Of a DNA stretch of 64,000 nt, positions 3,079 to 49,812 are shown in pieces. Origin of the DNA: Thermoplasmata archaeon (GTDB lineage Archaea; Thermoplasmatota; Thermoplasmata; Lutacidiplasmatales; UBA184). Each line of letters opens with the position of its first letter. Position 1 is the stretch's first letter. The position numbers and the translations under genes were made by a program. The stretch lies in the NCBI GenBank assembly GCA_027314165.1, contig DAHVCH010000005.1, positions 1-64,000 of the forward strand. Reading direction: 5' to 3'. A model generated the notes under the pieces. It made no database searches. It was not told the origin of the DNA and saw only the letters and a list, made by a program, of their open reading frames with translations.

Positions 3079-3194
3079 TCCCGGCTGCCTGACTCGAACA
3101 GGCGACCTGAGGATCTCTGCCTCGGGGGAACCGCCGAGCTCTCGGTCGGCGGACCGGACTACAGTCCCCCGCTCTACCACTGAGCTAAGCCGGG
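3079..3194 (-). tRNA. tRNA-Tyr (GTA) with a 44-nt intron
   Basis: On the minus strand the exons (3159-3194 and 3079-3114) fold into a complete cloverleaf: acceptor CCCGGCT/AGCCGGG with discriminator A, D stem GCTC/GAGC, anticodon stem GGGGA/TCCTC (one G-T pair) around CTGTAGA, and T stem GCCTG/CAGGC with TTCGAGT. The anticodon is GTA and the first pair is C1-G72, as in archaeal tRNA-Tyr. The intron (3115-3158) sits after anticodon position 37, the canonical archaeal site, and contains a hairpin CCGCCGA/TCGGCGG. No CCA is encoded. A long-variable-arm reading was rejected because the Tyr fold explains every helix. Confidence 0.95.
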
Positions 3195-7164: not shown

Positions 7165-7950
7165 ATGCAAGGACACTACGTCTCGCTGCGCAAGGTCGGC
7201 AAGGTCGGCATCATCGAGATCAACAAGCCGAAGGCGAACACCTACGATCACAAGATGGTCCTCGAGCTTGGCAACGCGATCGACGAGGTCCGCTTCGACG
7301 ACGAGATCCGAGTCGCGGTCACCACGTCGAAGGTCCCCAAGTTCTTCAGCGCAGGGGCCGACATCGAGATGCTGAAGGCCTCCGAACCGGACTTCAAGGC
7401 GATGTTCTGCCTGAACTGCCAGGAGACCCTCTCGAAGCTCGAGTCGACGCCCAAGCTCTTCATCGCGGCCCTGAACGGGCACACCGTCGGGGGCGGCCTC
7501 GAGATCGCGCTCGCCCACGACATCCGGTTCATGGTGGACGACCCGAAGGTCCAGATCGGCCTCCCCGAGGTCAACCTGGGGGTCCTTCCAGGGACCGGCG
7601 GGACGCAGCGCCTCCCGCGCCTCATCAACAAGTCCATCGCCCTCGACATGATGATCACCGGTCGCACGTTGAGCCCGCAAGAGGCCCTTCATGTCGGGCT
7701 GGTGAACTACCTCCACCCCGCCGACAAGTTCGAGGCCGAGTGGATGGCCTACGCGCAGAGGCTCGCCGAGGGCCCGGCCCGCGCGGTCGGCCTCATCAAG
7801 CGCTCCGTCCAGGAGGGCGTCGAGATGTCCTTGACCCAGGGCCTAGCCCTGGAGCGGGAGCTGCAGAACCGCCTCTTCGTTACCAAGGACGCGAAGGAAG
7901 GCCTCGCCGCCTTCATCGAGAAGCGGAAGGCCGTCTTCGCCGGCGCCTGA
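7165..7950 (+). CDS. Enoyl-CoA hydratase/isomerase-family protein
   Basis: The 261-residue protein has the crotonase fold. Motifs include FFSAGADIEML (the CoA/oxyanion-hole loop, about 63-73), GHTVGGGLEIALAHD (second oxyanion-hole helix), PEVNLGVLPGTGGTQRLPR with the catalytic Glu position, and a C-terminal FIEKRKAVF typical of hydratases. It is 30 bp upstream of the PaaA/BoxB-like gene on the same strand, so the two are probably one transcript and may act on a ring-epoxidised or ring-opened CoA thioester. The exact substrate is not readable from sequence. Confidence 0.9.
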   Translation: MQGHYVSLRKVGKVGIIEINKPKANTYDHKMVLELGNAIDEVRFDDEIRVAVTTSKVPKFFSAGADIEMLKASEPDFKAMFCLNCQETLSKLESTPKLFIAALNGHTVGGGLEIALAHDIRFMVDDPKVQIGLPEVNLGVLPGTGGTQRLPRLINKSIALDMMITGRTLSPQEALHVGLVNYLHPADKFEAEWMAYAQRLAEGPARAVGLIKRSVQEGVEMSLTQGLALERELQNRLFVTKDAKEGLAAFIEKRKAVFAGA

Positions 7951-7979: not shown

Positions 7980-8819
7980 ATGAAGGACCCCCCGTCGCCC
8001 TCCCCCACCGCCAAGAAGGGCCCGATGCAGCGGAGCCTGAAGGAGGGGGGCACGGTCGTCCCGGTGAGGGAGATCCTCTGGGGGGACAGCACGGGGGTCC
8101 ACAAGTACGAGACCGCGGACGAGCTCCCGCCCGAGATGGCGGACCTCATCATGCGTCTCATGGTGGTGCAGGCCGACACCGAGTACGGCTCGATCCAGCA
8201 GCATCGGCCGTGGCTCGACCAGGCTCCGTCGCTCGAGGACCGCTGGGTCCAGGCCCGCATCGTCGCCGATGAGGCGCGGCACGGTCTCCAGGCCTGCCGT
8301 ATCCTCCGCGACTTCGGCGAGGAGGGAGAGGCGCGGATCGCGAACCTGCTCCGGACGAAGGAGGGCGACCACAAGCTGGACGCCTTCAACATCCCCTTCG
8401 ATTCCTGGGCGGATGTCGGCGCGTTCACCTGTCTGGTCGACCGCGTGGGGGTCTACCAACTCCGCGCCTTCCAGGAGTGCGCCTACGGTCCGCTCGCGCG
8501 GGCGATGCCGCTCATGTTGAGCGAGGAGCAGCTCCACCTGAACTTCGGGTTCAACGTGCTCCGGAGGATGAGCCGCGACGGCCCGAAGTACTACGGCACC
8601 AAGGCGGAGGCCCAGGAGGCGGTGAACAAGTGGTTCCCGAGGGCCCTCGACATGTTCGGGCACTCGAAGTCCGCGACGAGCGAGAACGCGATCCGATGGG
8701 GGATCAAGCGGTGGACCAACGAGGAGGCCCGCGCGAGGTACCTCCTGGAGCTCACGCCCCTCCTCCAGAGCATCGGGCTCGAGGTCCCTGACCCGGACTG
8801 GAACCGCCGGATCCACTAG
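7980..8819 (+). CDS. PaaA/BoxB-like di-iron protein (aromatic-CoA epoxidase family)
   Basis: From ATG 7980 the protein has 279 residues and a ferritin-like four-helix pattern. Candidate iron ligands appear in two repeats: the Glu in QADTEYGSIQQH followed by DEARHG (E-x2-H), and the Glu in FQECAYGPLARAM followed by SEEQLHLNFG (E-x2-H). This is the ligand set of the PaaA/BoxB family, which epoxidise phenylacetyl-CoA or benzoyl-CoA with O2. It is shorter than BoxB (about 470) and near PaaA (about 310). No PaaB, C, D or E partner is in the window. The stop codon TAG lies inside the CTAG at the edge of the adjacent insertion sequence. Confidence 0.75.
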   Translation: MKDPPSPSPTAKKGPMQRSLKEGGTVVPVREILWGDSTGVHKYETADELPPEMADLIMRLMVVQADTEYGSIQQHRPWLDQAPSLEDRWVQARIVADEARHGLQACRILRDFGEEGEARIANLLRTKEGDHKLDAFNIPFDSWADVGAFTCLVDRVGVYQLRAFQECAYGPLARAMPLMLSEEQLHLNFGFNVLRRMSRDGPKYYGTKAEAQEAVNKWFPRALDMFGHSKSATSENAIRWGIKRWTNEEARARYLLELTPLLQSIGLEVPDPDWNRRIH

Positions 8820-8923: not shown

Positions 8924-10213
8924 TCAAGCGGTCCAGGCGACGTGTAGCTTCCGCAGATTGTGGGTGAGACCCCACAGTTTCCACTCCGCGCTCACCTTCT
9001 CGAACCCTCTCAGCAGAAACTGCCTCAGGCCTCTCCCTTGCTTGATCTGGCCGAAGACCGGTTCCACGCTGACCTTCCTCCACCGGTACTCTCTCCGCCC
9101 TCTTCGACTTCGGACCTTGCGTCTCATCATTGCAGTGAACCGCTCGTCCAGTGGGGGTCTCCCCCGCTGGCAGGGAGCGGTCTCCGCGACCCTCCAGGGT
9201 TCGGGAGGGCAATAGACGTCGATGCCTCGAGCTTGCAGCTGACGGATCTGGGCCTCGCTGAAGTAGCCGGCGTCCGCCAGCACCTTGTTGGGGAGCGTGC
9301 CCAGGGTTCGCTCCATCTCCCACATCATCGGAGCCAGATGCTGGCTGTCCGGATTGGTCTGGGCGACCAGCGTGCTGACGATGACCTGACTCTTCGCGTC
9401 GACCGCGGCCTGGGCGTTGTATCCCTGGATGAACGCTCCCTTGTTCCCGCTGTCCTGCATGATGCGGGAGTCGGGGTCGGTGAAGTTGTACTGGGTCTTG
9501 GGGTCGGGTTCCTTCTTCCCCTTCTTTTTCTCACGGTCCTCGAGCTCCTCTCGGGCCTTCCTGAGCTTCTTCAGTCGCTCCTTCCAATCGGGAGGGAGGG
9601 CGTTGAGCAGGGGATTCTGGTCCTTCCCGTAGAGCTGGTCTTCCTCCCGGTCGACCCGCTCCGCTTCGCGCAGGATCCTCCTCACCTGACGGTGGAGCTC
9701 GTCCTCCTTGGCCACGACGGTCGCGTAGGTCTTGGACTTGTGTTTGGAGGCGTTGGCCTTGATCTTGGTCCCGTCCAGTGCCACGCGGCCGAGTCGGACC
9801 AACCCCGCCGCCTGGCAGAGCTGCAGGACCTGGAGGAAGAGGTCGTCGATGAGCTTGAGGTTCCGCAGGCGGAACCGGTTGAGGGTGGTGAAGTGGGGGT
9901 GCTGGTCGGCGGCGAGCCATCGGGTGGCCACGTCGTCCCAGGTGGCCTTCTCCAGGCGACGGGAGGAGGCGACTCCAACGGAGTACCCATAGAGGAGAAC
10001 CTTCAGCTGGAGGCGAGGGTCGAAGGCAGGGGAGCCTCCCTCCTCGTTCTGGTACGTGGCGAGGAGGGGCTCCAGGTCGAGGTGCTCGTCGACCACGTCA
10101 GCGACCACGCGCGCGACATGCTCCTCAGGGAGCCAGTCGTTGAGGTCGGGAGGAAGGATGAGGGTCTGGTGGGGATCGTACTTGCGGAAGACCGGCTTCT
10201 TCGGGGTGGGCAT
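8924..10213 (-). CDS. IS1182-family transposase
   Basis: The frame is intact at 429 residues. The N-terminal part (KYDPHQTLILPPDLNDWLPEEH) and the segment ending in LYGYSVGVASSRRLE match the DUF772-type N-domain of IS1182/IS5-like transposases. A DDE core follows: VALDGTKIKANASKHK with the first Asp, YNAQAAVDAKSQVIV and VLADAGYFSE with the second Asp, and SVEPVFGQIKQGRGLRQF near the end with the Glu. A Lys/Glu-rich coiled stretch lies in the middle. It is the only gene in the element. Confidence 0.92.
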   Translation of the reverse strand: MPTPKKPVFRKYDPHQTLILPPDLNDWLPEEHVARVVADVVDEHLDLEPLLATYQNEEGGSPAFDPRLQLKVLLYGYSVGVASSRRLEKATWDDVATRWLAADQHPHFTTLNRFRLRNLKLIDDLFLQVLQLCQAAGLVRLGRVALDGTKIKANASKHKSKTYATVVAKEDELHRQVRRILREAERVDREEDQLYGKDQNPLLNALPPDWKERLKKLRKAREELEDREKKKGKKEPDPKTQYNFTDPDSRIMQDSGNKGAFIQGYNAQAAVDAKSQVIVSTLVAQTNPDSQHLAPMMWEMERTLGTLPNKVLADAGYFSEAQIRQLQARGIDVYCPPEPWRVAETAPCQRGRPPLDERFTAMMRRKVRSRRGRREYRWRKVSVEPVFGQIKQGRGLRQFLLRGFEKVSAEWKLWGLTHNLRKLHVAWTA

Positions 10214-14771: not shown

Positions 14772-15800
14772 CTACGGAGCCGGGACGACGATCGTCCGGA
14801 ACCCTTCCCCTGAGCGGATCTGGCGGAGGGCGTCATCGATCCTGGCGAGAGGCACCTCCGAGGAGATGACCGGGTCGAGGCGGACCTTGCCGCGCCGCAC
14901 GAGGTCCACGACCTTCGGGTAGTCCACGGGCCGGCAGCCCAGGGAGCCCATGATGGTGTACTCCAGGAACATGATCTTGTTCAGAGGCAGGGGCGCGCTC
15001 TGCGCGCTGTACCCGATGAGGCACAGCCGGCCCCCACGGCGCAGCGTGCTCACCGCGCTCGTGACCGTCGTCGGGGTCCCCACGGCCTCAAAGGCCACGT
15101 CCGCGCCCTCGCCGGTGATCGATCGGACGGCCTTCGCCAGGTCCGGGGTCTGCGCCGCGTTGATGGTCTCGACGGCCCCCAGAAGGGCCGCGGCCTTGAG
15201 CTTCGTCGGGCTGAGGTCCACGGCAATGACCTGCGCCCCGATCGCGGCGGCGATCTGGACGGCGTTGATCCCCACGCCTCCACAGCCCACCACGACCACC
15301 CACTCTCCCGCGCGCACGGCCGCGCGGTTCACGACCGCGTGGTAAGGCGTCGAGATCGCGTCAGCGATGATGGACCCACGGACCAGGGGGACCTCTGGAG
15401 GGAGGGGGATGACCTCCTGGGCGGGCGCCACCACGAGCTCGGCGAACCCTCCGTCGATGTGGTTGCCGAACATCCGCATCTTCGAGCAGATGTTCCCGCG
15501 ACCGGTCCGGCACAGCGTGCACTCCCCGCAGGGGATCACCGCCGGAAGCAGGACGTGCGAGCCCGGCTTCGGGCCGCGCGCGCCCTCTCCCTCGCCCACG
15601 ACGGTCCCCGAGATCTCGTGCCCAAGGATGAGCGGCGGAGGATGCGCGGTCGCGACACCATGGTCGAGGTAGTGAAGGTCGGTGTGGCAGAGGCCGCAAC
15701 CGGCCACCTTGACGAGCAGCTCCCCCTTCCCCGGGACCGGGTCGGGGACCTCCCTCAGGGCCAGGGGCTGTCCCGGACCCGTGAACACCGCCGCCCGCAT
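14772..15800 (-). CDS. had: Zinc-type alcohol dehydrogenase, probable 6-hydroxycyclohex-1-ene-1-carbonyl-CoA dehydrogenase
   Basis: The 342-residue protein is a medium-chain dehydrogenase. The catalytic zinc site is C38, H61 and E62 (GLCHTDLH; LGHEISG), the structural zinc site is C91, C94, C97 and C105, and the NAD-binding loop is GCGGVGINAVQ (about 172-182). In the benzoyl-CoA pathway Had oxidises the hydroxyl introduced by Dch to give 6-oxocyclohex-1-ene-1-carbonyl-CoA. The specific assignment comes mainly from position: it is the last gene of the oah-bcrBADC-dch-had series, 11 bp after dch. Alone it could be any zinc alcohol dehydrogenase. Confidence 0.82.
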   Translation of the reverse strand: MRAAVFTGPGQPLALREVPDPVPGKGELLVKVAGCGLCHTDLHYLDHGVATAHPPPLILGHEISGTVVGEGEGARGPKPGSHVLLPAVIPCGECTLCRTGRGNICSKMRMFGNHIDGGFAELVVAPAQEVIPLPPEVPLVRGSIIADAISTPYHAVVNRAAVRAGEWVVVVGCGGVGINAVQIAAAIGAQVIAVDLSPTKLKAAALLGAVETINAAQTPDLAKAVRSITGEGADVAFEAVGTPTTVTSAVSTLRRGGRLCLIGYSAQSAPLPLNKIMFLEYTIMGSLGCRPVDYPKVVDLVRRGKVRLDPVISSEVPLARIDDALRQIRSGEGFRTIVVPAP

Positions 15801-15811
15801 GTCCTCCCCCT

Positions 15812-16615
15812 CTACGGGCTACGCGCGGTGGGCGTGGACGGAGGGGCGGCCGCCCGCTTCTCCAGGAACCTCTTGAGCCCGTCCTCGGCGTCCGGCGCCG
15901 CCATCAGCTCGTTCAGGTAGGAGCTCTCGGCCCGCACCAGGGCGCTCATCTGGTCCTCGCCCATGAGCCTCTTCTGGAGCCGCAGGGTGGCCGGACGGTA
16001 GGACGAGAGCGTCCTGGCCATCTTGGCGACCTCCGACCCCAGCTGGCCGTCGGGCACGACCCTGTTGAGGATACCCAGCCGCAACGCATCCTGAGCGTCC
16101 ACGGTGGACCCCAGGAAGAGCAGTTCCCGCGCCGGCCGTGGGCCGAGGAGCCGCTCGTACGTGGCCACCCCGAAGGGCGGGAACACCCCCAGCCGGATCT
16201 CCGGCTGTCCAAAGGTGGCGCTGCTCGCCCCCAGGGCCAGGTCGCAGGCCATGAGCAGCTCCAGTCCGCCTCCCAGGCAGTGCCCTTCCACCTCGGCGAT
16301 GGTGGGGGCGGGCACGCTTCGGAGTCCCGCGAGGGCCTCTCGGAACGCGGACATCATCTCGCGGACCTTCGGTCGGAGATGGTCCTCCACCGCGAACCCG
16401 GCGCTCCAGCAGCCGCCGTCACCCCGGAGGACGACCGCGCGGGCCTCGAGCACCTCGGGCGTCTTGAGCGCCTGGGCGAGGTCTCGCAGGAGGCGGGAGT
16501 CGAAGATGTTCAGAGGACCGCGCTGCCACCGGACCTGGACCGCGCCCTCGCCCGGCTCGACCTTGACCCGTCCGCGTAGGTCCTGCGGAGGGACCGGCTC
16601 ATCCTTCTTCTTCAT
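15812..16615 (-). CDS. dch: Cyclohexa-1,5-diene-1-carbonyl-CoA hydratase
   Basis: A crotonase-fold protein of 267 residues. The Dch-like features are WSAGFAVEDHLRPKVREM, where the usual family has SAG-x-D-V-x-x-H-x-x-x-K-V-x-E-M, then GHCLGGGLELLMACDLAL (oxyanion-hole helix) and FGQPEIRLGVFPPFGV. FGQPEI-x-x-GVFPP is characteristic of dienoyl-CoA hydratases of the benzoyl-CoA pathway. It adds water to the diene made by benzoyl-CoA reductase. It begins 3 bp after bcrC stops and is followed 11 bp later by had, so translation is probably coupled. Confidence 0.85.
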   Translation of the reverse strand: MKKKDEPVPPQDLRGRVKVEPGEGAVQVRWQRGPLNIFDSRLLRDLAQALKTPEVLEARAVVLRGDGGCWSAGFAVEDHLRPKVREMMSAFREALAGLRSVPAPTIAEVEGHCLGGGLELLMACDLALGASSATFGQPEIRLGVFPPFGVATYERLLGPRPARELLFLGSTVDAQDALRLGILNRVVPDGQLGSEVAKMARTLSSYRPATLRLQKRLMGEDQMSALVRAESSYLNELMAAPDAEDGLKRFLEKRAAAPPSTPTARSP

Positions 16616-16617
16616 GT

Positions 16618-17799
16618 TCAGTCAAAGAGGACCGACTCGACGAAGGTCTCGATCTGGAGCCGGGACTGCTCGTAGGAGGTGGACTTCTCCTCGAACTCCA
16701 AGTGAAGGTAGGGGATCTTGTGGTCGTCCAGGCCCTTGCGGTAGAGCACCACGTCCTCGAGCGCGGGCTCGCAGAACTTCGCCGTCAAGAACAGCACGCC
16801 CTGCGCCTCCGCCTCCTTCGCCCGGGCGACGATGGAGACGCCCTTGGGCATGGGGGTGGCCCTCACGCCGATGTCCACCGGGCTGCGGATGTAGGCCCGA
16901 GCCAGGTTCTCGAGAGGGTCGCCGCTCACGGGCACGTCCCCCATCCAGCGGTGGAGCATGGAGAGCTCGTCCCCCACGACGTAGCACCCGGCCTCCTCGA
17001 TCAGCGAGAGGAGGTCGTGGGTCGGCTGCTCGCAGAACGGGCCCACCAGGATCACACGCACGGCGTCCCGCTTCGGACGCTGGCGCTCCTTGACCTCGCG
17101 GAGCGCGCGTTCGAGCACGGGCATCTGGACCTCCGGTGGCACCAGGTCTCCCAGGCGCTCCAGCAGGTTGAGCTCGGTCGCGGCGAGCTTCCAGGGTTCG
17201 CTCCTGCGTAGCGCCGCCAGGTCCGCCAGCAGCGCCCGCCGCCGGTTGTAGACCTGGAGACTGTCGGCCAGCGCGTCCTTGGAGAGGCGCTGCCCCGCGA
17301 GCCGCTCGAGCTTCTCCACGAGGCGCCCGTACTCGGCCACGAGGAACGGGACGGAGGAGGCCGACGTGAAGTTCTGCGGGAGATGGAGCATGTGGGTCAC
17401 GGCGTTCGGACGCAGGCGGGAGAAGATGCCCTCCAGGTTGCGGCTCACGTCGCAGATGTAGGGGAACACGAACGCGCCGAAAGGGTCGAGCTTGCCCGTG
17501 ATCGCAAGCTCCAGCGTGGACTTGCTGATCGAGCAGAGGAAGGAGCCCAGCGCCGCGTCCGCGTGGGTGATCTCGAGGTCCTCGCCCCCTCCGCGAAGGC
17601 TGACCGGCAGGAGACCGAGGGCGTGGGCGATCTCCTGGGGGGTGTAGACCGGGAAGAAGGCGGCGGCGTGCCCGCCTCCCGCGACCCAGGCCCGGGCGGT
17701 CGGGAAGGAAGAGTCCTGGATGAGCTCCATCGTGAGCTTGAGCGCCTGGGCGAGGTCGCGGGTCGCCCGGACCTCCTTGAGGTCCGAACTGAGGTTCAT
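16618..17799 (-). CDS. bcrC: Benzoyl-CoA reductase subunit C (class I, ATP-dependent)
   Basis: The 393-residue protein belongs to the HgdB/BcrC/FldC family of Fe-S reductase subunits and has the usual length (about 385). It shows FFPVYTPQEIAHALGLLPV near residues 50-70, the conserved SFLCSISKSTLEL and FVFPYICDVSRNLEG segments with candidate cluster cysteines, and VGPFCEQPTHDLLSLIEEAGCYVVGDELS. The C-terminal AKFCEPALEDVVLYRKGLD is the family's last conserved block. With BcrB it binds benzoyl-CoA and the [4Fe-4S] cluster at the active site. ATG 17799 was chosen, with GAGGAG upstream; GTG or TTG codons further upstream (up to about 17877) are possible. Confidence 0.9.
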   Translation of the reverse strand: MNLSSDLKEVRATRDLAQALKLTMELIQDSSFPTARAWVAGGGHAAAFFPVYTPQEIAHALGLLPVSLRGGGEDLEITHADAALGSFLCSISKSTLELAITGKLDPFGAFVFPYICDVSRNLEGIFSRLRPNAVTHMLHLPQNFTSASSVPFLVAEYGRLVEKLERLAGQRLSKDALADSLQVYNRRRALLADLAALRRSEPWKLAATELNLLERLGDLVPPEVQMPVLERALREVKERQRPKRDAVRVILVGPFCEQPTHDLLSLIEEAGCYVVGDELSMLHRWMGDVPVSGDPLENLARAYIRSPVDIGVRATPMPKGVSIVARAKEAEAQGVLFLTAKFCEPALEDVVLYRKGLDDHKIPYLHLEFEEKSTSYEQSRLQIETFVESVLFD

Positions 17800-17879
17800 G
17801 GTCGGGACGGAGGGCTCCTCGTTCGGGGCGGCCACTCGGGCGCTTCCCCGGTTCTCGTGGATCTGGAGCAGCGTCAAGG

Positions 17880-18686
17880 TCAGTTCCTCACTCCCGCGGG
17901 ACCGGACAGCCGCAGGGCCCTCTGGTGTCCGAGCAGGGCTGCCCCGATGGCGGCGGCGTAGTGGCCTTCCGACTGCGCGTTGACCCCCATGTGCACCGTG
18001 TCCCCGACGGCCCGGACCATCGCCTCGCTGTGCACCAGGCCCCCGACCAGGGTGATCTCGGACTCGATCCCCACGTAGCGCATGAGCGAGTAAGCGCGCT
18101 GGGCGAGGGAGAGGTACACCCCCATCAGGATGTCCGGGAGCGGGACCTCCTCGGCGACGTTGTTGATGATCTCGGTCTCGGCGAGGACCGCGCACACGCT
18201 CGAGATGAGCTTCGGCTTCTGAGCGGAGAGCGCCCGCGCCGACATGTCCTCCATCGGGACCTGGAGGTACTTCGAGCAGCGTTCGACGAAGCGCCCGGCC
18301 CCTGCCGCGCACTTCTCGTTCATCTTGAACTTCAGGACCTTCCCCGTCGGGGAGATGCGGATCGCCCGGGAGGACTGGGCCCCGATGTCCAGGACATGGC
18401 GCGTGCCCGGACGCAGGAAGCTCGCACCCTTCGCGGAAGAGGTGATGTCGCTCACCTGGAGCTGCCGGTTCGGGAACATGTAACGACCGAACCCCGTGGT
18501 GCAGAGGTACGCGAGGTCCCCGGGAACGAGGTTCTCCGCCTCCGCGAGGTCCTCCAGCACCTGCTGGCCCGCCGACGAGGGGTTCCCCCGGGTCGGGCGC
18601 GAGGCCGTGTTGAGGATCTTCCGTCCGTCCTCGATCAGGGCGCCCTTCACGACGCCCGAGCCGAGGTCCAGCCCGCAGGTGATCAC
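17880..18686 (-). CDS. bcrD: Benzoyl-CoA reductase ATPase subunit D
   Basis: This 268-residue ASKHA-fold ATPase is one half of the ATP-hydrolysing electron-activating module of class I benzoyl-CoA reductase. It has the phosphate-1 loop GLDLGSGVVK (5-14), DIGAQSSRAIR (100-110), and the cluster-binding cysteines C126 (KMNEKCAAGAGRF) and C165 (SSVCAVLAETEIIN), by which two subunits hold one [4Fe-4S] cluster. VLDIGA-x-x-x-RAIR and the SS-x-CAVLAET-x-IN segment match BcrD better than BcrA. GTG 18686 overlaps the TGA of bcrA (GTGA). Confidence 0.9.
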   Translation of the reverse strand: MITCGLDLGSGVVKGALIEDGRKILNTASRPTRGNPSSAGQQVLEDLAEAENLVPGDLAYLCTTGFGRYMFPNRQLQVSDITSSAKGASFLRPGTRHVLDIGAQSSRAIRISPTGKVLKFKMNEKCAAGAGRFVERCSKYLQVPMEDMSARALSAQKPKLISSVCAVLAETEIINNVAEEVPLPDILMGVYLSLAQRAYSLMRYVGIESEITLVGGLVHSEAMVRAVGDTVHMGVNAQSEGHYAAAIGAALLGHQRALRLSGPAGVRN

Positions 18687-19474
18687 GATGCCGTCCCCCC
18701 TCGCAGCCGGTCCGCCCCCGCCAGGGCAGCTCCGATGGCGCCCATGTACTGGGAGAGCGGACTGACGTTGATGGGCATGCGCAAGCGTCCGGAAAGGGCG
18801 CGGACCATCCCCTCGTTCCGGGAGACCCCGCCCGTGAAGGTCACCTCCGGCTCGATCCCCACGCGCTGCAGGAGCGACAGGCTGCGGTTCGCGATGCTCG
18901 CGTGGAGTCCCGCGAGGATGTCCTTCGGGTCCTTTCCTCGCGATACGTGGGAGGTCACCTCGCTTTCCGCGAAGACGGTGCAGGTGCTCGTGACCTTGAC
19001 GGGGTGGCGCGCCTCCAGCGAGAGGGGCCCGATCTCGGCCACATCGTAGCCGAGGGCCCCGGCGCAGACGTCCAGGAAGCGACCGGTGCCGGCCGCGCAC
19101 TTGTCGTTCATCGCGAAGTCGGCGACCTCGCCGCGCTCGTTCACGCGGATGGCCTTCGTGTCCTGGCCACCGATGTCGATGACCAACCGTGTCCTGGGGA
19201 AGAGGAAGTGCGCCCCTCGGGCATGGCAGGAGATCTCGGTCACGGTGAGCTGACCGAACGCGATCTTGTACCGGCCGTATCCGGTCCCGGTCACGAACGC
19301 GACCTCCGACCGGTCCAACCGGGCGTCGACCAGCGCGAGACGCAGCGCCTCTTCCGCATCGCGCACGATGTTGACCCCTACCGGATTGAGCGACTTGCCA
19401 AGAAGCTCGCCGTCCCGGAGGATCACGCACTTGGCGGTCGTCGATCCGACGTCGATGCCTGCGGCGGCCTTCAT
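18683..19474 (-). CDS. bcrA: Benzoyl-CoA reductase ATPase subunit A (BcrA/BzdQ/HgdC-like)
   Basis: The second ASKHA ATPase of the reductase, 263 residues. It shows AGIDVGSTTAKCVIL (5-19), DIGGQDTKAIR (100-110), NDKCAAGTGRFLDV with C126, and TSTCTVFAESEV with C165. These cysteines coordinate the bridging [4Fe-4S] cluster of the ATPase dimer that delivers low-potential electrons to BcrBC. The subunit is short compared with Thauera BcrA (about 440) and closer to the Azoarcus BzdP/Q and archaeal sizes. ATG 19474 overlaps the stop of bcrB (ATGA), so translation is coupled. Confidence 0.9.
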   Translation of the reverse strand: MKAAAGIDVGSTTAKCVILRDGELLGKSLNPVGVNIVRDAEEALRLALVDARLDRSEVAFVTGTGYGRYKIAFGQLTVTEISCHARGAHFLFPRTRLVIDIGGQDTKAIRVNERGEVADFAMNDKCAAGTGRFLDVCAGALGYDVAEIGPLSLEARHPVKVTSTCTVFAESEVTSHVSRGKDPKDILAGLHASIANRSLSLLQRVGIEPEVTFTGGVSRNEGMVRALSGRLRMPINVSPLSQYMGAIGAALAGADRLRGGTAS

Positions 19475-20832
19475 GATACCCGCACCCCCGAGACCGCTGC
19501 TGCCCCCGCGGCGGCGGTGCTCTTCCGCTGCTCGAGCGATTCGAAGAAAGCGTCCATTCGGTTCTTGATCTGGGCCGGCGCGAAGTACCGTGGGTCCTCG
19601 TGGTCCGACTCGAGGTAGAGCGTCGGGGTGCCCGTCTCGTGGATGAGCCAGTCCCTCAGGTCTCCCTGCCCCGCGGTGAACGACCGGCAGGACTTGATGC
19701 CGTGGATAAGGACCGCGTCCGCTTGGAAGTCGTGGACGTACTTCTTGATGAGCTCGCGCCGAAGCGGCCAGCTCTGGTTGACGTAGGCCCCGAGGCTGTA
19801 CTCTGCGATGCTCTCGAGCGGGCGGGCGGGGTCGTGGACGAAGCCCAGGTCGAAGAGGCCCCCGACCTTCGGGTAGGTCGCCGCCACGCTGACCGCGCCC
19901 CACTTTCTGAAGAAGTCCCAGAAGGTGCGGTAGTTCGTGTAGGGGGGCACCCCCTCGACCACGAGCCTGACCTTCTCCTCGGGGACCGGGTAGTTCCCCT
20001 CTTTCAGGCGGACCTTGACCTCCTGGTTGACGGTCTCGTAGAACCGCACCGCCTCCTCGGTCCCGCGAAGGACGTTGATCGGGAACATGTAGAACACCGC
20101 CTCAAAGTACGCTTCGATCGGGGACGGGACGTTCCGACCGGCGTCGAGGTACTGGACCCAGAGCTCCTCCGCTCGGCGGCTCCGCTCGAGCACGCGCTTG
20201 AGCTCGGCCATGTCGAAGGAGCGGCCGGTCTGCTTCTCGAGAAGGTGGATGAAGTCCCAGAGCTGGGCCACCATGTACTCGACGTCCTCCTTGAGCGGCT
20301 TCTCGGTCCGCTGGTAGGGAACGTCGAAATTGAACAACGGCGCGCCGAGGGTCTCCGCGAGCGCCTCCCACCACTTGATGTAAACGTAGCACCCGGAGAA
20401 GCTGCAGACGAGCAGGTCCGGCTTAGGGATGTGGCCGAAGGGCGTGTCGCCTCCCAGGGACTGGAGCCCTAGGTCATTCTTGACGTAGCCGCAGACGTCG
20501 AGCCCGTATCCCTGGGCCTCCGCCTGAAGGATGTTGTCGAGCGACTTGTGCTTGATCGCGCAGTTCAGGGCGACGATCTCGGGGAAGACCACCTCGTATC
20601 CGAACGAACGGACGATCTCGGTGAGGTTCCCGCCCACCAGCATGTACGCGACAGGACGCTTCGCCTTCTCGGCCTCGGCGAGCTGGAGGTAGTACCGCTC
20701 CACCATCTGCCGCTGCTCTTCGCGCGCGTCGCGAAGGAAGCCCGACGACGCTGGCCCGGCCTTGTCACCCGAAGGCTGGGTCGGGGGGATCGGGTGAGGC
20801 GTGACCGAGGAGGGACCGCTCAAGATCTCCAC
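19471..20832 (-). CDS. bcrB: Benzoyl-CoA reductase subunit B (class I, ATP-dependent)
   Basis: From GTG 20832 (preceded by AGGAG) the protein has 453 residues, close to known BcrB (about 437). It follows BcrB closely in order: DVCGYVKNDLG (C114), CSFSGCYVYIKWWE (C148), RPVAYMLVGGNLTE, PSPIEAYFEAVFYM, EKVRLVVEGVPPYTNYRTFW, YPKVGGLFDLGFVHDP, DAVLIHGIKSCRSFTAGQ and DPRYFAPAQIKNRMDAFFE. With BcrC it forms the dearomatising module that reduces benzoyl-CoA to cyclohexa-1,5-diene-1-carbonyl-CoA. It starts 8 bp after oah stops. The longer open frame into oah is not used. Confidence 0.93.
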   Translation of the reverse strand: MEILSGPSSVTPHPIPPTQPSGDKAGPASSGFLRDAREEQRQMVERYYLQLAEAEKAKRPVAYMLVGGNLTEIVRSFGYEVVFPEIVALNCAIKHKSLDNILQAEAQGYGLDVCGYVKNDLGLQSLGGDTPFGHIPKPDLLVCSFSGCYVYIKWWEALAETLGAPLFNFDVPYQRTEKPLKEDVEYMVAQLWDFIHLLEKQTGRSFDMAELKRVLERSRRAEELWVQYLDAGRNVPSPIEAYFEAVFYMFPINVLRGTEEAVRFYETVNQEVKVRLKEGNYPVPEEKVRLVVEGVPPYTNYRTFWDFFRKWGAVSVAATYPKVGGLFDLGFVHDPARPLESIAEYSLGAYVNQSWPLRRELIKKYVHDFQADAVLIHGIKSCRSFTAGQGDLRDWLIHETGTPTLYLESDHEDPRYFAPAQIKNRMDAFFESLEQRKSTAAAGAAAVSGVRVS

Positions 20833-20840
20833 TCCTGTGC

Positions 20841-21962
20841 CTAGGCCTTGGCGGGGCCGCCGGCCGTTGCGAGCGGAGCCCCGCAGAAGCCACAGAACTT
20901 GGTCGCTTCGGGCAGCTGCGTAGCCCCGCAGCCGGAACAGGAACGCGTGGGGGGTCCGTGGAAGTAGTCCGCACCGTCCCCCGTGGCCCGACGCCGACGA
21001 AGTTCGGCCACGTTGACCGGGCGCTTCTGGACGAAGGCCCCCATCCCCTCGTGGACCTCCAGGGAGTTGAAGTGGAGGGCGAGCCACTCGCGGACCCCGG
21101 GGTACGTCTGGTGCCACGCGAGCTCCTTCCAGAAGTTCGTCTGGGCCTTCGTGAAGCGGAGGCACTCGGGGAACTTCTCGAGCAGCTGACGGGCCAGCAG
21201 GTCGACCGCTTCGTCTAGCGGCCGAAGGTCGATCGAGAAACCGTCCTTCCCGGCGAGCGCTGCGTCGCGCTCGGCGGGGGTCGGGTCCTCCAGGAGACGG
21301 TCGCCCTGGCGCACCGACGGGACCGTCTGGGAGACCAGCCCCCAGTCCTCCGCCTTGTGCGCAGAGATCCGCTCGTTCAGGAAGAGCATCCTCCGGGCCC
21401 GGCGGTCACCGACCACCAGGGGCAGCCACTGGGTTGCGCCGCCCGCAGCGACCGAGCCGACGCCCACTCCCACCTGTCCGATGTAGATGTGCGACGCGGC
21501 CACGGACATGTCGCAGGCCAGGTGAAGCTCGTTCCCTCCCCCCACCGTCATCCCGTTCAGGCGCGCGATGGTCGGCTTCCCGCAGGTGAGGAGGGACTCT
21601 ACCACCCGCGCGAAGTGGGCCATGTACTTCCAGTAGTCGTGGGGCCGCCGGGTGTACCGCTCGTTGTACTCCTTGACATCCCCACCCGTGCAGAACGCTC
21701 GCTCGCCGGACCCCGTCAGCACGACGACCCCGATGGCGTCGTCGAACGCCGCGTTCTCGACCGCCCAGGAGATCTCCTGGAGCGTCTCGGTGGTGTAGGC
21801 GTTGTAGGCGTACGGCCGGTTAAGCGCGATGCGGGCGACCCCGTTCGACTTGGTGTACAGGACATCGTGGAGCACCCGGTCCGGAGCGGGACCCGCGGAG
21901 GCGGGGCCCGAGGCCGGGGGAGGGTTGGTCGGTTTGGTCCGGGGAACCGTATTCGTCGCCAT
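20841..21962 (-). CDS. oah: 6-oxocyclohex-1-ene-1-carbonyl-CoA hydrolase with C-terminal zinc ribbon
   Basis: A 373-residue crotonase-family protein with the longer Oah layout. Key segments are VLHDVLYTKSNGVARIALNR, GSGERAFCTGGDVKEYNERY (oxyanion-hole loop), GKPTIARLNGMTVGGGNELH, and YPGVREWLALHF near the end. Oah hydrates and hydrolytically opens the ring to 3-hydroxypimelyl-CoA. After the enzyme domain a zinc-ribbon-like end follows: C-x2-C (SCSGCG) and C-x2-C (KFCGFCGAP), not part of the classical enzyme as I know it. It is the first gene of the operon. ATG 21962 was preferred over the in-frame ATG 21986; the N-terminal 30 residues are Pro/Ala-rich. Confidence 0.88.
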   Translation of the reverse strand: MATNTVPRTKPTNPPPASGPASAGPAPDRVLHDVLYTKSNGVARIALNRPYAYNAYTTETLQEISWAVENAAFDDAIGVVVLTGSGERAFCTGGDVKEYNERYTRRPHDYWKYMAHFARVVESLLTCGKPTIARLNGMTVGGGNELHLACDMSVAASHIYIGQVGVGVGSVAAGGATQWLPLVVGDRRARRMLFLNERISAHKAEDWGLVSQTVPSVRQGDRLLEDPTPAERDAALAGKDGFSIDLRPLDEAVDLLARQLLEKFPECLRFTKAQTNFWKELAWHQTYPGVREWLALHFNSLEVHEGMGAFVQKRPVNVAELRRRRATGDGADYFHGPPTRSCSGCGATQLPEATKFCGFCGAPLATAGGPAKA

Positions 21963-22146
21963 AGCGGTCACGCCTTGATCACCCACACTCCCGGAGCCTC
22001 AGGAGCCCCTCCTGAATCCCGATTCGACCGCACAGGTTAGGTCTGACCGGCGCCCTGCCCACGCCCGACCGGCCGTCGACCGACCCGGGTTGACCCCCCA
22101 GATCGTCCAAGTGCGGCCGCCTGGCCGGGCGCGGGGTGACCGGGCC

Positions 22147-22719
22147 TCAGGCCACGCTCAGCGGGACCCCGGTCGACAAGAGGTGCGGGTTCTGCCCGTA
22201 GCGCTCCCGGTAGCTCTGCTCGATCTCGAGACAGGCCTGCGCGACCTCCATCATCTCCCTCCGGGAGAGGAGTTCCTGGGCCAGGGGGAAGAGCACGAAA
22301 TCCTCCTTCACGATGTGCTCGGAGAGGAGCGCCTCGATCGCGTTCAGGGTGCGAGAGATCTTCCCGCACGCCTTCTCGTCACCAATGTCCTGCAGAAGGG
22401 CCTCGCCGCTCTTCTCGAGAGTGACGTGGAGCTCCCGGACCACCTCGTGCTCCGTGAGCACCGCGCTCACCTCTCCCTCTTGCTCGGGGAGATGGTGGAC
22501 CAGCAGGGGGAACAGCACGCGCTCTTCCTTCGCGTCATGGAGCCCGTCCACGTCCCGTCCGAGGAAGTCGGCGAAGGAGAGCACGTTCCGAGCGAGCTCG
22601 GCGCTACGGCTCGGGCTGCGCAGACCTTGCCGCCAGAGCTGACGGGCGGACTCGACCCTGGACAAGAACACCTGGTGCTCGTCCATCAATTTGCGGATAG
22701 GGTCGTACGCGAGCTCCAT
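22147..22719 (-). CDS. Hemerythrin-domain (HHE) protein
   Basis: About 190 residues from ATG 22719, mostly helical. The metal-ligand pattern of HHE hemerythrins is visible: MDEHQVFL, LHDAKEERVLFPLL (H-x3-E), LTEHEVVRELH (H-x4-H) and SEHIVKEDFVLFPLA (H-x3-E). Such proteins bind a di-iron site and sense or handle O2, NO or iron. The gene lies about 185 bp upstream of oah and 160 bp downstream of the U32-family gene, all on the minus strand, so it may share regulation with the benzoyl-CoA operon and protect its oxygen-sensitive reductase. Upstream ATGs at 22737 and 22752 are alternative starts. Confidence 0.8.
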   Translation of the reverse strand: MELAYDPIRKLMDEHQVFLSRVESARQLWRQGLRSPSRSAELARNVLSFADFLGRDVDGLHDAKEERVLFPLLVHHLPEQEGEVSAVLTEHEVVRELHVTLEKSGEALLQDIGDEKACGKISRTLNAIEALLSEHIVKEDFVLFPLAQELLSRREMMEVAQACLEIEQSYRERYGQNPHLLSTGVPLSVA

Positions 22720-22880
22720 GACTTTGCTCCCGTTCATCGGGAGGCGTGGCATACGGAGTTCGCCAGACCGGTGCGGCCTTTCGGACCACTTGGCACAAGG
22801 AGGGGTCTCCGGCGCCGCTCGAACCGCGCCCGTCGGAGCGCGAGGCCCGGCCCCAGTTCGTCGGAGGGTCAAGCGAGCGG

Positions 22881-24056
22881 TCACTTCTCAGGGTCCGACG
22901 GAGGCATCGCTCCTCCAAACCCCGCGAGCGCCGCGTGCGAGGGTGGGATCTCCTCGGGGGGGCGGTACTCGGAAAGCGGGTGTCCACCGATGTGCACGAC
23001 CTTCTCGGCCACACGCGCACAGTACCCGCACGAAGCGCAGGAGATGTGCTCGCAGTCGGTCTCGGCGATCCGTCGCATGAACCCGGGAGGGAAGCTCTGG
23101 TTGTCGATCCTCACGTCCTGGAGCGGGCGGAAGGCGCGCTGGAGCGCGGAGATCGGCTCGCCCGCAGCTTTCGGGGAATGGCCGATCGCGGAGAGCGCCT
23201 GGCTCGGCGCCTTGACCTGGACGAAGCTGAGGATGTCGAGAAGGTTGCCCTCGTACTTCCGCTCCGTGTAGGCGCGCGCGACCTTCTCGAGCCAGTCGGT
23301 GCTGCGGTTGCGCCCCGAGATCTTGAACCGCTCGACCCCGGCCTCTTCGTAGACCGCGAGGTCCTCCGGGCGGACCCAGATGGACGAGACCAGCTTCGTG
23401 GGGTCCCGTACGACCTCGAGGCCGCACTGGAGGATGGGGTGCTCGAACCAGAGCTGTTCGCCCCCTTCCTGAGAGCAGAGCGAGCTCGTGTTCAGGTGGT
23501 GTCCCCGGTAGGGGCAGTCGCGGATGCAGGTCTGGTTCACCAGGACCTCCACGGGCACCTTGGCCCTGGCCAGGCCCTTGATCAAGCGGAAGTCCCGGTT
23601 GCCTTCCTCGAGGATCACGTGCTCCGCGCCCAAGCGCCGGAAGTACATCGCCTGGTTCACCGTCCGAAGTCGTGCGAACGTGGAGACCGAGACCGGGACG
23701 TTCGGATGGGACGAGCGAATGACCTCCAGCAGGAGGGGCAGGGCCACGACGAACCCGTCGACCCCCAGGTCGATCAGGTGGTCCACCTCCTCGCGGAATC
23801 GCGGGAGGAAGTCCGGGGCGTACTCCTTGAGACCGAGATCGTTCGAGTTGAGCGTCGCGAAGAACTTCCGGTCGGTGCGGTGGATGACCTCGAGATGCTC
23901 GGCGAAGCGCTCCTCGCTGATGTGGGGGAGGATGTAGGGGGGACGACCTCCGCCCGTGAGCGAGACCGGGAACCCCCCGAAGAAGGTCGTCACAGGGAGG
24001 TCGCGGACCCGTTCTACGAGGTGGTCGTCGAAGTTCGTCGCGAGAACGAGCTCCAT
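22881..24056 (-). CDS. U32 peptidase-like (UbiU/UbiV-type) Fe-S protein
   Basis: The 391-residue protein resembles the U32 family, now known to include UbiU/UbiV and other O2-independent hydroxylases rather than true peptidases. Conserved parts are VPVSVSTFARLRTVNQA and RLGAEHVILEEGNRDF. Four cysteines match a [4Fe-4S] pattern: C177 and C181 (NQTCIRDCPYRGHH), C194 (SSLCSQ) and C211 (ILQCGLE). A second set, C335, C340, C343 and C346 (ISCASCGYC), lies near the C-terminus and could hold another cluster. A TTTTGTTA-like element about 30 nt upstream supports ATG 24056. An anaerobic hydroxylation role near an aromatic-degradation operon is attractive but inferred. Confidence 0.8.
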   Translation of the reverse strand: MELVLATNFDDHLVERVRDLPVTTFFGGFPVSLTGGGRPPYILPHISEERFAEHLEVIHRTDRKFFATLNSNDLGLKEYAPDFLPRFREEVDHLIDLGVDGFVVALPLLLEVIRSSHPNVPVSVSTFARLRTVNQAMYFRRLGAEHVILEEGNRDFRLIKGLARAKVPVEVLVNQTCIRDCPYRGHHLNTSSLCSQEGGEQLWFEHPILQCGLEVVRDPTKLVSSIWVRPEDLAVYEEAGVERFKISGRNRSTDWLEKVARAYTERKYEGNLLDILSFVQVKAPSQALSAIGHSPKAAGEPISALQRAFRPLQDVRIDNQSFPPGFMRRIAETDCEHISCASCGYCARVAEKVVHIGGHPLSEYRPPEEIPPSHAALAGFGGAMPPSDPEK

Positions 24057-24104
24057 GCGGCGTCGAGCGGACGTGTCTCCTAACAAAATGGCCTCACCGG
24101 TGAG

Positions 24105-24527
24105 GTGCGAGAGGCTTGTCCTCAGAGGGGTCAGTGCCCTGTGCGCGCCTCAGAGCTCGAGGATGAGCAGGGGGCGTCCCTAGAGGAGCGCCGGCTTCGC
24201 ATCGAGAAGGCGGATCGCCTCCTGGTCGGGGCGATCGCCCTCCGTCTCCAGGAGGTGGCCGAGGTCCAGCGCTGGAAGCGGGAGCATCGTGTGCCCGGGG
24301 AGGACCGGGCCCAGGAGCGTCAGGTCCTCCGACGGGCGCGCTACTGGGCGCTCGCGAACGGGATCGCACCGGAGATCGTCGAGCAGGTGCTGCTCCTGCT
24401 CGTGCGGGAGGGCAAGCGCTTGCACATGGAGCGCCCGACCCTAGGAGAGGAGGAACGCCTTCGACTCCGAGTACGCCCGGCGCGCGCCGGGAGCACCGCG
24501 GTCCGGGGTCGGGAGAGCCGTGCCTGA
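24105..24527 (+). CDS. Chorismate mutase (AroQ-type) domain protein
   Basis: The 140-residue protein contains one AroQ helical domain at about 28-110: RRLRIEKADRLLVGAIALRL with the active-site arginines, then QRWKREHRVPGEDRAQERQV with the conserved Lys and D-R-x-x-E-R motif, and a last helix with VEQVLLLLVREGKRLH. The enzyme turns chorismate into prephenate for Phe/Tyr synthesis. The first 25 residues are unrelated and GTG 24141 is an alternative start. The C-terminal 25 residues are Arg-rich. No other shikimate gene is in view. Confidence 0.75.
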   Translation: MREACPQRGQCPVRASELEDEQGASLEERRLRIEKADRLLVGAIALRLQEVAEVQRWKREHRVPGEDRAQERQVLRRARYWALANGIAPEIVEQVLLLLVREGKRLHMERPTLGEEERLRLRVRPARAGSTAVRGRESRA

Positions 24528-24654
24528 AGGGGAGGACACCAAGCCCATGGCGCTCTCCAGGTCGAAACGACCAGCCCGTGCCTCACCTGTCAGGTCAATC
24601 CGGCTCCACCCAGGCATGATTAGCTCCCATACGGGTGCGGAGGCCGAGGCCCCC

Positions 24655-25434
24655 ATGCCGATGCACCCCACCCTGTCGCTCCCCCGAGCGGTCCCGATCC
24701 AATCCCGCCCGAAACGGAGCCGACGTGTCACCTCGAGGCCGGACACCAACAGTTCCTTCGTCGAGGTCCGACTACGTTCACCCCCCTCGACCCACTGGAT
24801 GGGACAGATCGTGGAGAAGTTTGGGGGCCGGGCTCGGGTGCTTCTGTGCCGGCCTACGGGGCCTGGCGAAGGGAAGATGCTCCGGGTCGTCGAGGTCTCC
24901 GCGCCCCCGGAGAAGATGGAGGCCATCGTGCGCTTTGCCCGACGCTCGGCCTCAAAGGGCACGATGACCATCGATGCCCGGGCGGCCCACCGCATCATGC
25001 TCTGGGTGGTGGAGCCAACTCCTCCGGCCTGCGCGGCGGTCTTCCACGCAGGCGCGGTCTGCGCCTCCTGCCCGCTCTTCCCTCGAGCGGACGTCCCGCC
25101 GGAGGATGGGCAGGACTGGAGCCTCCTGCTCCCCAGGATGTCGCCCCGCGCCAAGGCGCTCCTCAAGGTGTTCGGCCCCCACGATGGGGCCTCTGCGCTC
25201 CTCCGCGTGGGAGGGATCGCCCCCGAGGCCGAGATGACCTCGAGGCAGGAACGCGCGGTCGAGACCGCTTTCCGGATGGGGTACTTTGACCACCCGCGCC
25301 GCGCGGGTCTTCGTGAAGTGGCCGGAGCTTTGGGCGTCAGCCGGTCCACCACGCTCGAGCTGCTCCGTCGAGGGCTGACGAAGGTCCTCGCTCGACGCGA
25401 GGCTCAGGGCGTCCCCGGGTTCGCGGGCGACTGA
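24655..25434 (+). CDS. HTH_10 (Bat-like) transcriptional regulator
   Basis: The C-terminal 55 residues are a typical archaeal HTH_10 domain: EMTSRQERAVETAFRMGYFD, then HPRRAGLREVAGALGVSRST and TLELLRRGLTKVLA. The N-terminal part (from about VEVRLRSPPSTHWMGQIVEK) resembles the ligand-sensing part of Thermoplasmatota/haloarchaeal Bat-like regulators and includes a CASC pair. The frame is open back to 24520, but those first residues look non-coding; the true start may even be the ATG at 24799. It is likely a one-component sensor. The target is unknown. Confidence 0.78.
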   Translation: MPMHPTLSLPRAVPIQSRPKRSRRVTSRPDTNSSFVEVRLRSPPSTHWMGQIVEKFGGRARVLLCRPTGPGEGKMLRVVEVSAPPEKMEAIVRFARRSASKGTMTIDARAAHRIMLWVVEPTPPACAAVFHAGAVCASCPLFPRADVPPEDGQDWSLLLPRMSPRAKALLKVFGPHDGASALLRVGGIAPEAEMTSRQERAVETAFRMGYFDHPRRAGLREVAGALGVSRSTTLELLRRGLTKVLARREAQGVPGFAGD

Positions 25435-32188: not shown

Positions 32189-33047
32189 GACCGCGGCTCC
32201 CCCTGGCTCCCACGAAGGGGGCGCCTCGCCTTGGGCGCCGGCCCCGTACCGGGTCGTGGAACGGGCCCAGGAGACCGCGGACACCGCCACGCTCGCGCTC
32301 GAGCCGGTCGAGCCCGCCCCTCCCCCGGGCTTCGTGCCGGGTCAGTTCCACATGCTCTACGCCCCCGACATCGGGGAGGCGGCCATCTCCATCTCCGGCG
32401 CCCCGAGCGACCCGCGGCGCAGGGTCCACACCATCCGCTCGGCCGGTCGCGTCACGGACGCGCTGACCCGGGCGCGCGTGGGGGACGTGGTGGGCCTGCG
32501 CGGTCCCTACGGCCGGGGATGGCCCCTTCGTGAGGCTGAGGGGAAGGACCTCCTGCTCGTCGTGGGGGGGCTGGGGCTCCCTCCGCTGCGGCCCGTCCTC
32601 TACGAGGTGCTCGCCCATCGCGACCGTTTCCGCCGGGTCGAGATCGCCTACGGCGCACGGACCCCGAAGGACCTGGTGTACTACGACGAGATCCAGGCCT
32701 GGAGGGCTCGAAAGGACCTGCGCTTCCAGGTGACCGTCGACCGGGCAGGGGTCGACTGGTACGGGGATGTGGGGATCGTGAGCCAAAGGATCCCGGACAT
32801 GCGGTTCGACCCAAGCTCCGCGGTCGCCTTCCTCTGCGGTCCGGAGATCATGATGCGCGGCTCCGCGCAGGCCCTCGTGGACCGGGGGATGTCGAGGTCC
32901 AGCGTCTACGTCTCCATGGAGCGAAACATGAAGTGCGGCTTTGGCCAGTGCGGCCACTGCCAGTTCGGTCCCTACCTCCTCTGCCGGGATGGGCCGGTCC
33001 TTCCCTATTCGTCGGTGGAGCGCTACTTCGCGCTCCGGGAGCTCTGA
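32178..33047 (+). CDS. hydG: Hydrogenase gamma subunit, FAD/NAD(P)H-binding (HydG-type)
   Basis: The 289-residue protein has a ferredoxin-NADP reductase-like layout: an FAD barrel with [10 protein letters not shown] and [27 protein letters not shown], the NAD(P) fold starting [19 protein letters not shown], and a C-terminal [2Fe-2S] motif in [20 protein letters not shown] with C-x4-C-x2-C and the later LLC. It exchanges electrons with NAD(P)H for the hydrogenase. The ATG lies within the end of the cNMP gene and the stop overlaps hydD (TGATG). Confidence 0.93.
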
Positions 33048-35136: not shown

Positions 35137-35149
35137 GGGGGGACCGTCC

Positions 35150-49722: not shown

Positions 49723-49812
49723 GTTCACCCTCGAGGCCACCAACCCAGGGGACGAGATATGAGGCGAAGGTGAAGTCAGATTGACCTCACCGGTAGGGTA
49801 TTCCGGAAGGTT

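Follow-up and report, generated by a model that had tools for sequence, protein, structure and literature searches.

The window analyzed here, a 64,000-nucleotide stretch of a Thermoplasmata archaeon assembly (contig DAHVCH010000005.1, positions 1 to 64,000), carries a seven-gene operon that very probably encodes a class I ATP-dependent benzoyl-CoA reductase pathway; the host is an acidophile, most probably of the Lutacidiplasmatales, and likely a facultative aerobe. The seven genes are intact and lie contiguously on the minus strand (14772–21962). From the first gene to the last, they are an oah-like gene (20841–21962) whose product is a predicted ring hydrolase of the crotonase fold that ends in a zinc ribbon (CxxC..CxxC) at its C terminus; bcrB for a catalytic subunit of the MbdO/BcrB type (19471–20832); bcrA for an ATPase/electron-activating subunit with an intact DIGGQD motif (18683–19474); bcrD, with a GTG start, for a second ATPase-family subunit with a degenerate DIGAQS motif (17880–18686); bcrC for a catalytic subunit of the MbdN/BcrC type (16618–17877); a dch-like crotonase gene for a predicted cyclohexa-1,5-diene-1-carbonyl-CoA hydratase (15812–16615); and had (14772–15800). 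With working starts, the successive intergenic gaps are 8, −4, −4, 2, 2, and 11 bp. A preliminary description of this region had named the same seven genes as one transcription unit; both points hold, with spacings of −4 to +11 bp rather than the 3–80 bp given there.

Pfam searches assign the operon two HGD-D proteins (PF06050), two BcrAD/BadFG ATPases (PF01869), two crotonases, and one zinc alcohol dehydrogenase, with the two PF06050 and two PF01869 genes contiguous. The predicted Bcr, Dch, Had, and Oah activities are combined in one operon that is kept across the family of the host genome at approximately 48–90% identity. The gene content bears out the complete set proposed in the preliminary description, albeit with scores below the NCBIfam equivalog cut-offs.

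Predicted benzoyl-CoA reductase subunits

Profile and structure searches both place the four reductase subunits with benzoyl-CoA and methylbenzoyl-CoA reductases. Among NCBIfam models, BcrB scores 343 bits on TIGR02260, compared to 174 for HadB (2-hydroxyisocaproyl-CoA dehydratase) and 111 for BzdO, and BcrC scores 283 bits on TIGR02263, compared to 167 for HadC and 73 for BzdN. BcrA and BcrD both exceed the cut-off of TIGR00241, with 284 and 173 bits, respectively. For every subunit, the best match among solved structures is a subunit of 3-methylbenzoyl-CoA reductase: BcrB matches MbdO (224 bits) over HadB (138) and BzdO (105), BcrC matches MbdN (270 bits) over HadC (150) and BzdN (82), BcrA matches MbdQ (E = 1.4e-87), and BcrD matches MbdP (212 bits) over a dehydratase activator (165). 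The Bcr/Mbd scores of BcrB and BcrC thus stand 85–170 bits above those for 2-hydroxyacyl-CoA dehydratases.

Residues consistent with iron-sulfur cluster binding are also conserved. Three cysteines in each catalytic subunit, Cys114, Cys148, and Cys382 in BcrB and Cys115, Cys142, and Cys369 in BcrC, are present without exception in the Bcr loci examined. BcrA and BcrD each retain both Cys126 and Cys165, as previously described. The difference between DIGGQD in BcrA and a DIGAQS-like motif in BcrD recurs in nearly all loci where both motifs are readable, including bacterial ones, and may point to unequal roles for the two predicted ATPases.

A phylogenetic tree of BcrB was built with Mbd, Had, and Bzd proteins from the PDB as references and was rooted with outgroups from a plasmid search, homologues of reference Bcr with 23–28% identity; the best 80 loci included no Bcr from a named Thauera or Ferroglobus. 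The family falls among Bcr proteins, with HadB and a Fusobacterium homologue, as well as BzdO and the plasmid homologues, outside. MbdO sits elsewhere among Bcr, with a branch length of 4.4 changes per column. The grouping with benzoyl-CoA reductases rather than 2-hydroxyacyl-CoA dehydratases agrees with the preliminary naming of these genes.

These results bear directly on whether the Bcr-like proteins might instead be an atypical (R)-2-hydroxyacyl-CoA dehydratase and its activator, acting on amino-acid-derived hydroxyacyl-CoAs. The two enzyme types belong to the same superfamilies (PF06050 and PF01869), and no other HGD-D genes were found in the 2.54-Mb genome, which is 86% complete. However, the HadB and HadC scores are approximately half of those for BcrB and BcrC, HadB and the Fusobacterium homologue branch outside the Bcr clade, and predicted Dch, Had, and Oah partners share the operon. 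Activators of 2-hydroxyacyl-CoA dehydratases are single-gene homodimers, whereas two different ATPase subunits are encoded here. We rejected the dehydratase identity, which appears highly improbable, having found neither placement in the HadB/HadC clade nor a single activator gene.

The subgroup and substrate of the predicted reductase are less sharply defined. Since none of the Thauera-type equivalog cut-offs is reached (343 of 487 bits for BcrB, 283 of 421 for BcrC, 149 of 313 for BcrD, and 202 of 578 for BcrA on TIGR02259), the enzyme is placed in class I broadly, with no assignment to the Thauera-type subgroup. Its true substrate could be a substituted benzoyl-CoA, such as a 3-methyl-, 3-hydroxy-, or lignin/humic-derived aryl-CoA, with an Mbd-like reductase and an otherwise identical pathway. 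The low Thauera-type scores would fit such a substrate, as would the 3-methylbenzoyl-CoA reductase matches of all four subunits, the failure to find a benzoate-CoA ligase in the genome (see below), and the acidic habitats involved, namely peat, forest soil, and mine drainage (PMC9287336). Set against this, MbdO does not group with the family but lies elsewhere on a very long branch, and the preference for Mbd may be a database effect, because the PDB matches included no Thauera-type BcrABCD. We regard a substituted substrate as a serious but unlikely alternative to benzoyl-CoA.

Predicted Dch, Had, and a zinc-ribbon form of Oah

The predicted ring hydrolase, called oah in the preliminary description, turned out to lie outside the canonical Oah family: it scores 204 bits on TIGR03200, for which the cut-off is 464, and belongs to a sister clade. 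Canonical Oah proteins from other bcr loci, used as controls, score 551 (L105) and 486 bits (L097) and have no ribbon, whereas the CxxC..CxxC ribbon is found in all archaeal full-length Oah-like copies and many bacterial ones. The two types share 31–37% identity, and the zinc-ribbon proteins carry GGNE at the active-site motif where canonical Oah has GGQEIGM. In the crotonase tree, the zinc-ribbon and canonical forms together make up one clade (support 100, starred) that includes neither Dch nor generic enoyl-CoA hydratases; its zinc-ribbon subclade has a support of 85. Among the named loci, 49 contain zinc-ribbon Oah and seven contain canonical Oah, with none containing both. Because the two types share a clade and never a locus, we infer that the zinc-ribbon protein, which occupies the oah slot of the operon, performs the same step in place of canonical Oah. 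An AlphaFold model of the protein was poor (mean predicted local distance difference test score of 52) and was not used.

The low TIGR03200 score and the GGNE motif could also indicate some other crotonase, for example a hydratase or a MenB/BadI-like protein, with the ring opened elsewhere; for the Heimdall homologue, MenB gives an equal score. We consider this improbable, given that the clade shared with canonical Oah excludes Dch and generic enoyl-CoA hydratases and that canonical Oah never accompanies the protein that fills the oah slot.

We also compared both types with the bamA primers SP9F and ASP1R (PMC3794298). Canonical genes show 0–5 and 0–2 mismatches to these primers, respectively, and yield a 292-bp product. 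In zinc-ribbon genes, mismatches number 4–9 and 4–7 at the best sites, and no proper product results. The zinc-ribbon form, the more frequent of the two in the sampled loci, therefore escapes the standard bamA/oah PCR marker, and the process may be undercounted in environmental surveys.

The best NCBIfam family of the predicted Dch is TIGR03189, with 127 bits and a cut-off of 292; the bcr-linked Dch proteins among the matches listed for this model score 132–198 bits and are also below this cut-off. The protein clusters with bcr-linked Dch proteins (support 96, starred). As the equivalog cut-offs are not reached, the names Dch and Oah draw on where the proteins fall in the tree and on their operon setting. 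For Had, the best family is TIGR03201 (277 bits, cut-off 339) and the best PDB match is a solved Had.

Host genome and distribution

The host genome most probably belongs to the Lutacidiplasmatales, an order that lives in acidic soils, including peat and forest soil, and in mine drainage (PMC9287336). It is placed in the same class as the 400 genomes sampled, and its nearest named relatives are metagenome-assembled genomes (MAGs) labeled Thermoplasmata archaeon, supporting the Thermoplasmatota host suggested in the preliminary description. The GC content is approximately 69%, like the figure of about 69% for Lutacidiplasmatales and inside the 65–71% expected of a member, and SubAcS9-61, listed as Lutacidiplasmatales, encodes a BcrB that is 89% identical. 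The closest operon copy, in the MAG WH2.bin11, is 97–99% identical (97% for BcrB) and has the same flanking genes.

Fifty of the 400 genomes of the class have a BcrC match. Within the family, such matches occur in 31 genomes besides the host's own, while at least 20 have none. Approximately 27 of the 31 carry the operon type described here at 57–98% identity, and the order and orientation of the operon genes are kept across family genomes. The BcrB tree unites the family in a starred 33-row Thermoplasmata clade whose sister is a group of Heimdallarchaeota and an unclassified archaeon (support 98, starred), with bacterial Bcr proteins one step beyond Asgard.

This position, and the wide occurrence of Bcr in bacteria, is what could be said for a misassembled or contaminating bacterial fragment. 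However, composition is uniform, estimated genome contamination is 0.38%, and independent MAGs within the starred clade contain the same operon and flanks. A chimeric contig, a concern raised in the preliminary description, is excluded because near-identical or homologous operons recur in many independent assemblies (WH2.bin11 and more than 25 other family genomes), and the probability of such an artifact is negligible.

Physiology and proposed mechanism

The genome encodes two 2-oxoacid:acceptor oxidoreductases that score over their cut-offs and one Por-type enzyme, which could supply reduced ferredoxin. It also encodes acyl-CoA dehydrogenases, electron transfer flavoprotein-like proteins, thiolase, 3-hydroxyacyl-CoA dehydrogenase, and a haem-copper oxidase. 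These oxidoreductases, beta-oxidation enzymes, and oxidase fit the use of a class I reductase by an organism that is not a strict anaerobe. Glutaryl-CoA dehydrogenase could not be singled out among the acyl-CoA dehydrogenases of the genome (best score 315 of 470 bits).

In the proposed mechanism, reduced ferredoxin would donate electrons to the BcrA/BcrD ATPase pair, across which Cys126 and Cys165 of each subunit would hold a bridging [4Fe-4S] cluster. ATP hydrolysis would then drive electrons of low potential on to the catalytic subunits BcrB and BcrC, which would reduce benzoyl-CoA, or a close ring-substituted analogue, to a cyclic dienoyl-CoA. This product would be hydrated by Dch and the resulting alcohol oxidized by Had, before zinc-ribbon Oah opens the ring to give 3-hydroxypimelyl-CoA for ordinary beta-oxidation. 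Expression would be controlled by an HTH_10 regulator through a shared palindrome, perhaps in response to oxygen.

Several observations weigh against a class I benzoyl-CoA pathway. None of the seven operon proteins reaches the NCBIfam equivalog cut-off for its own step, the Dch score is barely above those of generic enoyl-CoA hydratases, and two relatives (L044 and L048) lack dch in the operon. Searches of the 86% complete genome found no dedicated benzoate-CoA ligase (best score 231 of 375 bits, the best candidate gene being an acetate-CoA ligase) and no phenylacetate-CoA ligase over the cut-off. Benzoyl-CoA may be formed by beta-oxidation of phenylalkanoates by general enzymes or by an unrecognized ligase, or the relevant genes may lie on missing contigs.

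Gene order and evolutionary relationships

The B-A-D-C order is confined to the family, with C-B-A-D at every other readable locus, whether bacterial, Asgard, or from other Thermoplasmatota; the preliminary observation that the order is unlike the bacterial bcrCBAD is therefore confirmed. Other Thermoplasmatota, including L088, are placed among bacterial sequences in the BcrB tree. Single inheritance of bcr within Thermoplasmatota was rejected, as a tree constrained to one clade gave a p-AU (approximately unbiased test) of 1.9e-5. By its tree position, the operon has no specific kinship to other Thermoplasmatota bcr and its nearest outside relatives are Asgard.

Two further arrangements were observed in the family. 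Four genomes of genus g3 (loci L051, L170, L171, and L172) have a second reductase type of 42–45% identity beside or instead of the first, with genome G041 containing both. This type also has the B-A-D-C order and, where covered, its oah, had, and dch-like genes are on the opposite strand; it possibly acts on a different aryl-CoA substrate. In most other genera of the family (L036–L049), a divergent enoyl-CoA hydratase gene faces oah, an arrangement that is absent in the host's genus.

Palindrome and linked regulator

Upstream of the operon, the unit extends to a divergent regulator and shared palindromes that had been overlooked in the preliminary description. A 16-bp palindrome with the consensus SCCBNACCGGTNVGGS precedes oah. 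The copy in the window, ACCTAACCTGTGCGGT (22027–22042, minus strand), is imperfect, lies 65 bp before the oah start, and is a candidate operator. Within 250 bp before oah, the ten-base core occurs with at most one mismatch in all 17 testable family loci and exactly in 13, against backgrounds of 6.1% and 2.1%, respectively, in random 250-bp segments of the same loci, though these loci are related and so do not represent independent trials. The strict 16-mer is present in 0–4 copies per genome across 61 family genomes, compared to 0–1 for the reversed control, and in most bcr-bearing genomes with the strict 16-mer, one copy is the site before oah. The host genome has 11 palindromic sites, approximately half of them intergenic, compared to one for the reversed control.

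Pattern scans detected further copies beside the upstream genes: GCCGCACCGGTCTGGC (22762–22777, minus strand) just 5' of the likely start of a hemerythrin gene, ACCTCACCGGTGAGGC (24091–24106, no strand assigned) 5' of a U32 gene, and GCCTCACCTGTCAGGT (24580–24595, plus strand) 5' of the likely start of the HTH_10 regulator gene. The hemerythrin-domain protein (22147–22884, minus strand, likely start 22737; PF01814) is encoded 184 bp upstream of oah and has a counterpart in seven of the 17 family loci. Its gene is overlapped by 4 bp by that of a cysteine-rich U32-family protein (22881–24086, minus strand; PF01136), which is UbiU/TrhP-like with a weak UbiU match and is kept next to the operon within the genus and in one other genome.

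Divergent to this U32-hemerythrin-bcr block is the HTH_10 regulator gene (24520–25434, plus strand, true start probably near 24750; PF04967, 60 bits). The whole genome has only three HTH_10 genes. In all 11 family loci with approximately 19 kb covered, such a gene is near the operon. The protein contains four invariant cysteines (C110, C171, C181, and C184), and it may reasonably be hypothesized to sense redox state as an activator or repressor. Through the shared palindrome, this cysteine-containing regulator probably switches the operon. Such control of an oxygen-sensitive, ATP-costly enzyme in an archaeon with a terminal oxidase is a testable hypothesis.

The same palindrome is located at 49784–49799, upstream of an OsmC-like gene (49839) in the spacer that separates it from a divergent neighbor. 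Elsewhere in the genome, copies are found between, for example, the genes for HxlR-like/DUF169-like proteins and S-adenosylmethionine synthetase. The genes beside these copies hint at a small redox regulon.

Other features of the window

Approximately 6 kb from the bcr operon is a gene for a PaaA/BoxB-like di-iron epoxidase subunit (7980–8819, plus strand; PF05138), with an enoyl-CoA hydratase gene beside it (7165–7950). The protein is the only PF05138 member in the genome; its best PDB match is 4mud, followed by PaaA, and it scores 127 of 280 bits on TIGR02156. An oxygen-dependent aromatic route alongside the anaerobic one is possible. Translations alone indicate a transposase-like gene (8924–10213, minus strand) separating the PaaA-like gene from the bcr region and an apparent NiFe-hydrogenase set (32256–35987, plus strand) of small and large subunits, maturation protease, and HypA-like protein. 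A 116-base tRNA (3079–3194, minus strand) detected by Rfam and not by ARAGORN probably contains an intron.

Significance and comparison with known systems

The preliminary description had considered the presence of this pathway in Thermoplasmatota a notable extension. Its occurrence there was already published: class I bcr genes with oah, dch, and had were reported in Thermoplasmata MAGs (Dong et al., 2019; PMC6472368) and bcrABCD in the Thermoplasmatota order RBG-16-68-12 in 2022 (PMC9239135). No published link between Lutacidiplasmatales and benzoyl-CoA was found in a search that covered few subscription papers. What appears to be new is the occurrence in Lutacidiplasmatales, the B-A-D-C order, the zinc-ribbon Oah, the palindrome, and the regulator. 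We tentatively propose that Lutacidiplasmatales harbor a distinct archaeal class I lineage in which a bamA-invisible zinc-ribbon protein has displaced canonical Oah and a redox-sensing HTH_10 regulator acts on a dedicated palindromic operator, a combination we hold to be conceivable rather than probable. Descriptions of Lutacidiplasmatales to date portray them as aerobic or facultative organisms that live on carbohydrates, peptides, and fatty acids. The predicted pathway carries the anaerobic degradation of aromatic rings into this widespread archaeal order of acid soils and mine drainage. If the proposal is correct, acidophilic archaea that respire oxygen would be an overlooked group of anaerobic aromatics degraders in peat and mine drainage.

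With the class I operon of Thauera and Magnetospirillum (bcrCBAD, dch, had, and oah), the operon shares a predicted four-subunit ATP-dependent reductase, the Dch-Had-Oah series, and the cluster cysteines. It differs in its order (oah-B-A-D-C-dch-had), its scores below the equivalog cut-offs, its Oah from a sister group, and its archaeal regulator and palindrome. The 3-methylbenzoyl-CoA reductase MbdONQP (PDB 9g87 and 9gai) is the best sequence match for every subunit among solved structures, and its delta subunit, like BcrD, lacks the Asp of the GGQD motif; it stands apart from the family on a long branch. Canonical Oah/BamA, the TIGR03200 family targeted by SP9/ASP1, is a sister group within the crotonases with presumably the same operon role, and is set apart by the lack of a ribbon, the GGQEIGM motif, and its match to the primers.

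Other Thermoplasmatota bcr (PMC6472368; 'Ca. Yaplasmales', PMC9239135) have the phylum and reductase class in common with the operon, whereas the Thermoplasmatota loci L088, L095, and L101 differ in their C-B-A-D order, 52–54% BcrB identity, and position among bacteria; L088 is probably the 'Ca. Yaplasmales' locus of the 2022 South China Sea study (PMC9239135). Asgard examples are known from the bcr clusters of Hermodarchaeota (PMC8163825). The clusters of Heimdallarchaeota and related archaea (L082–L084) contain the nearest BcrB relatives (58–61%) and also encode zinc-ribbon Oah, but unlike the family, they have the C-B-A-D order and other flanking genes.

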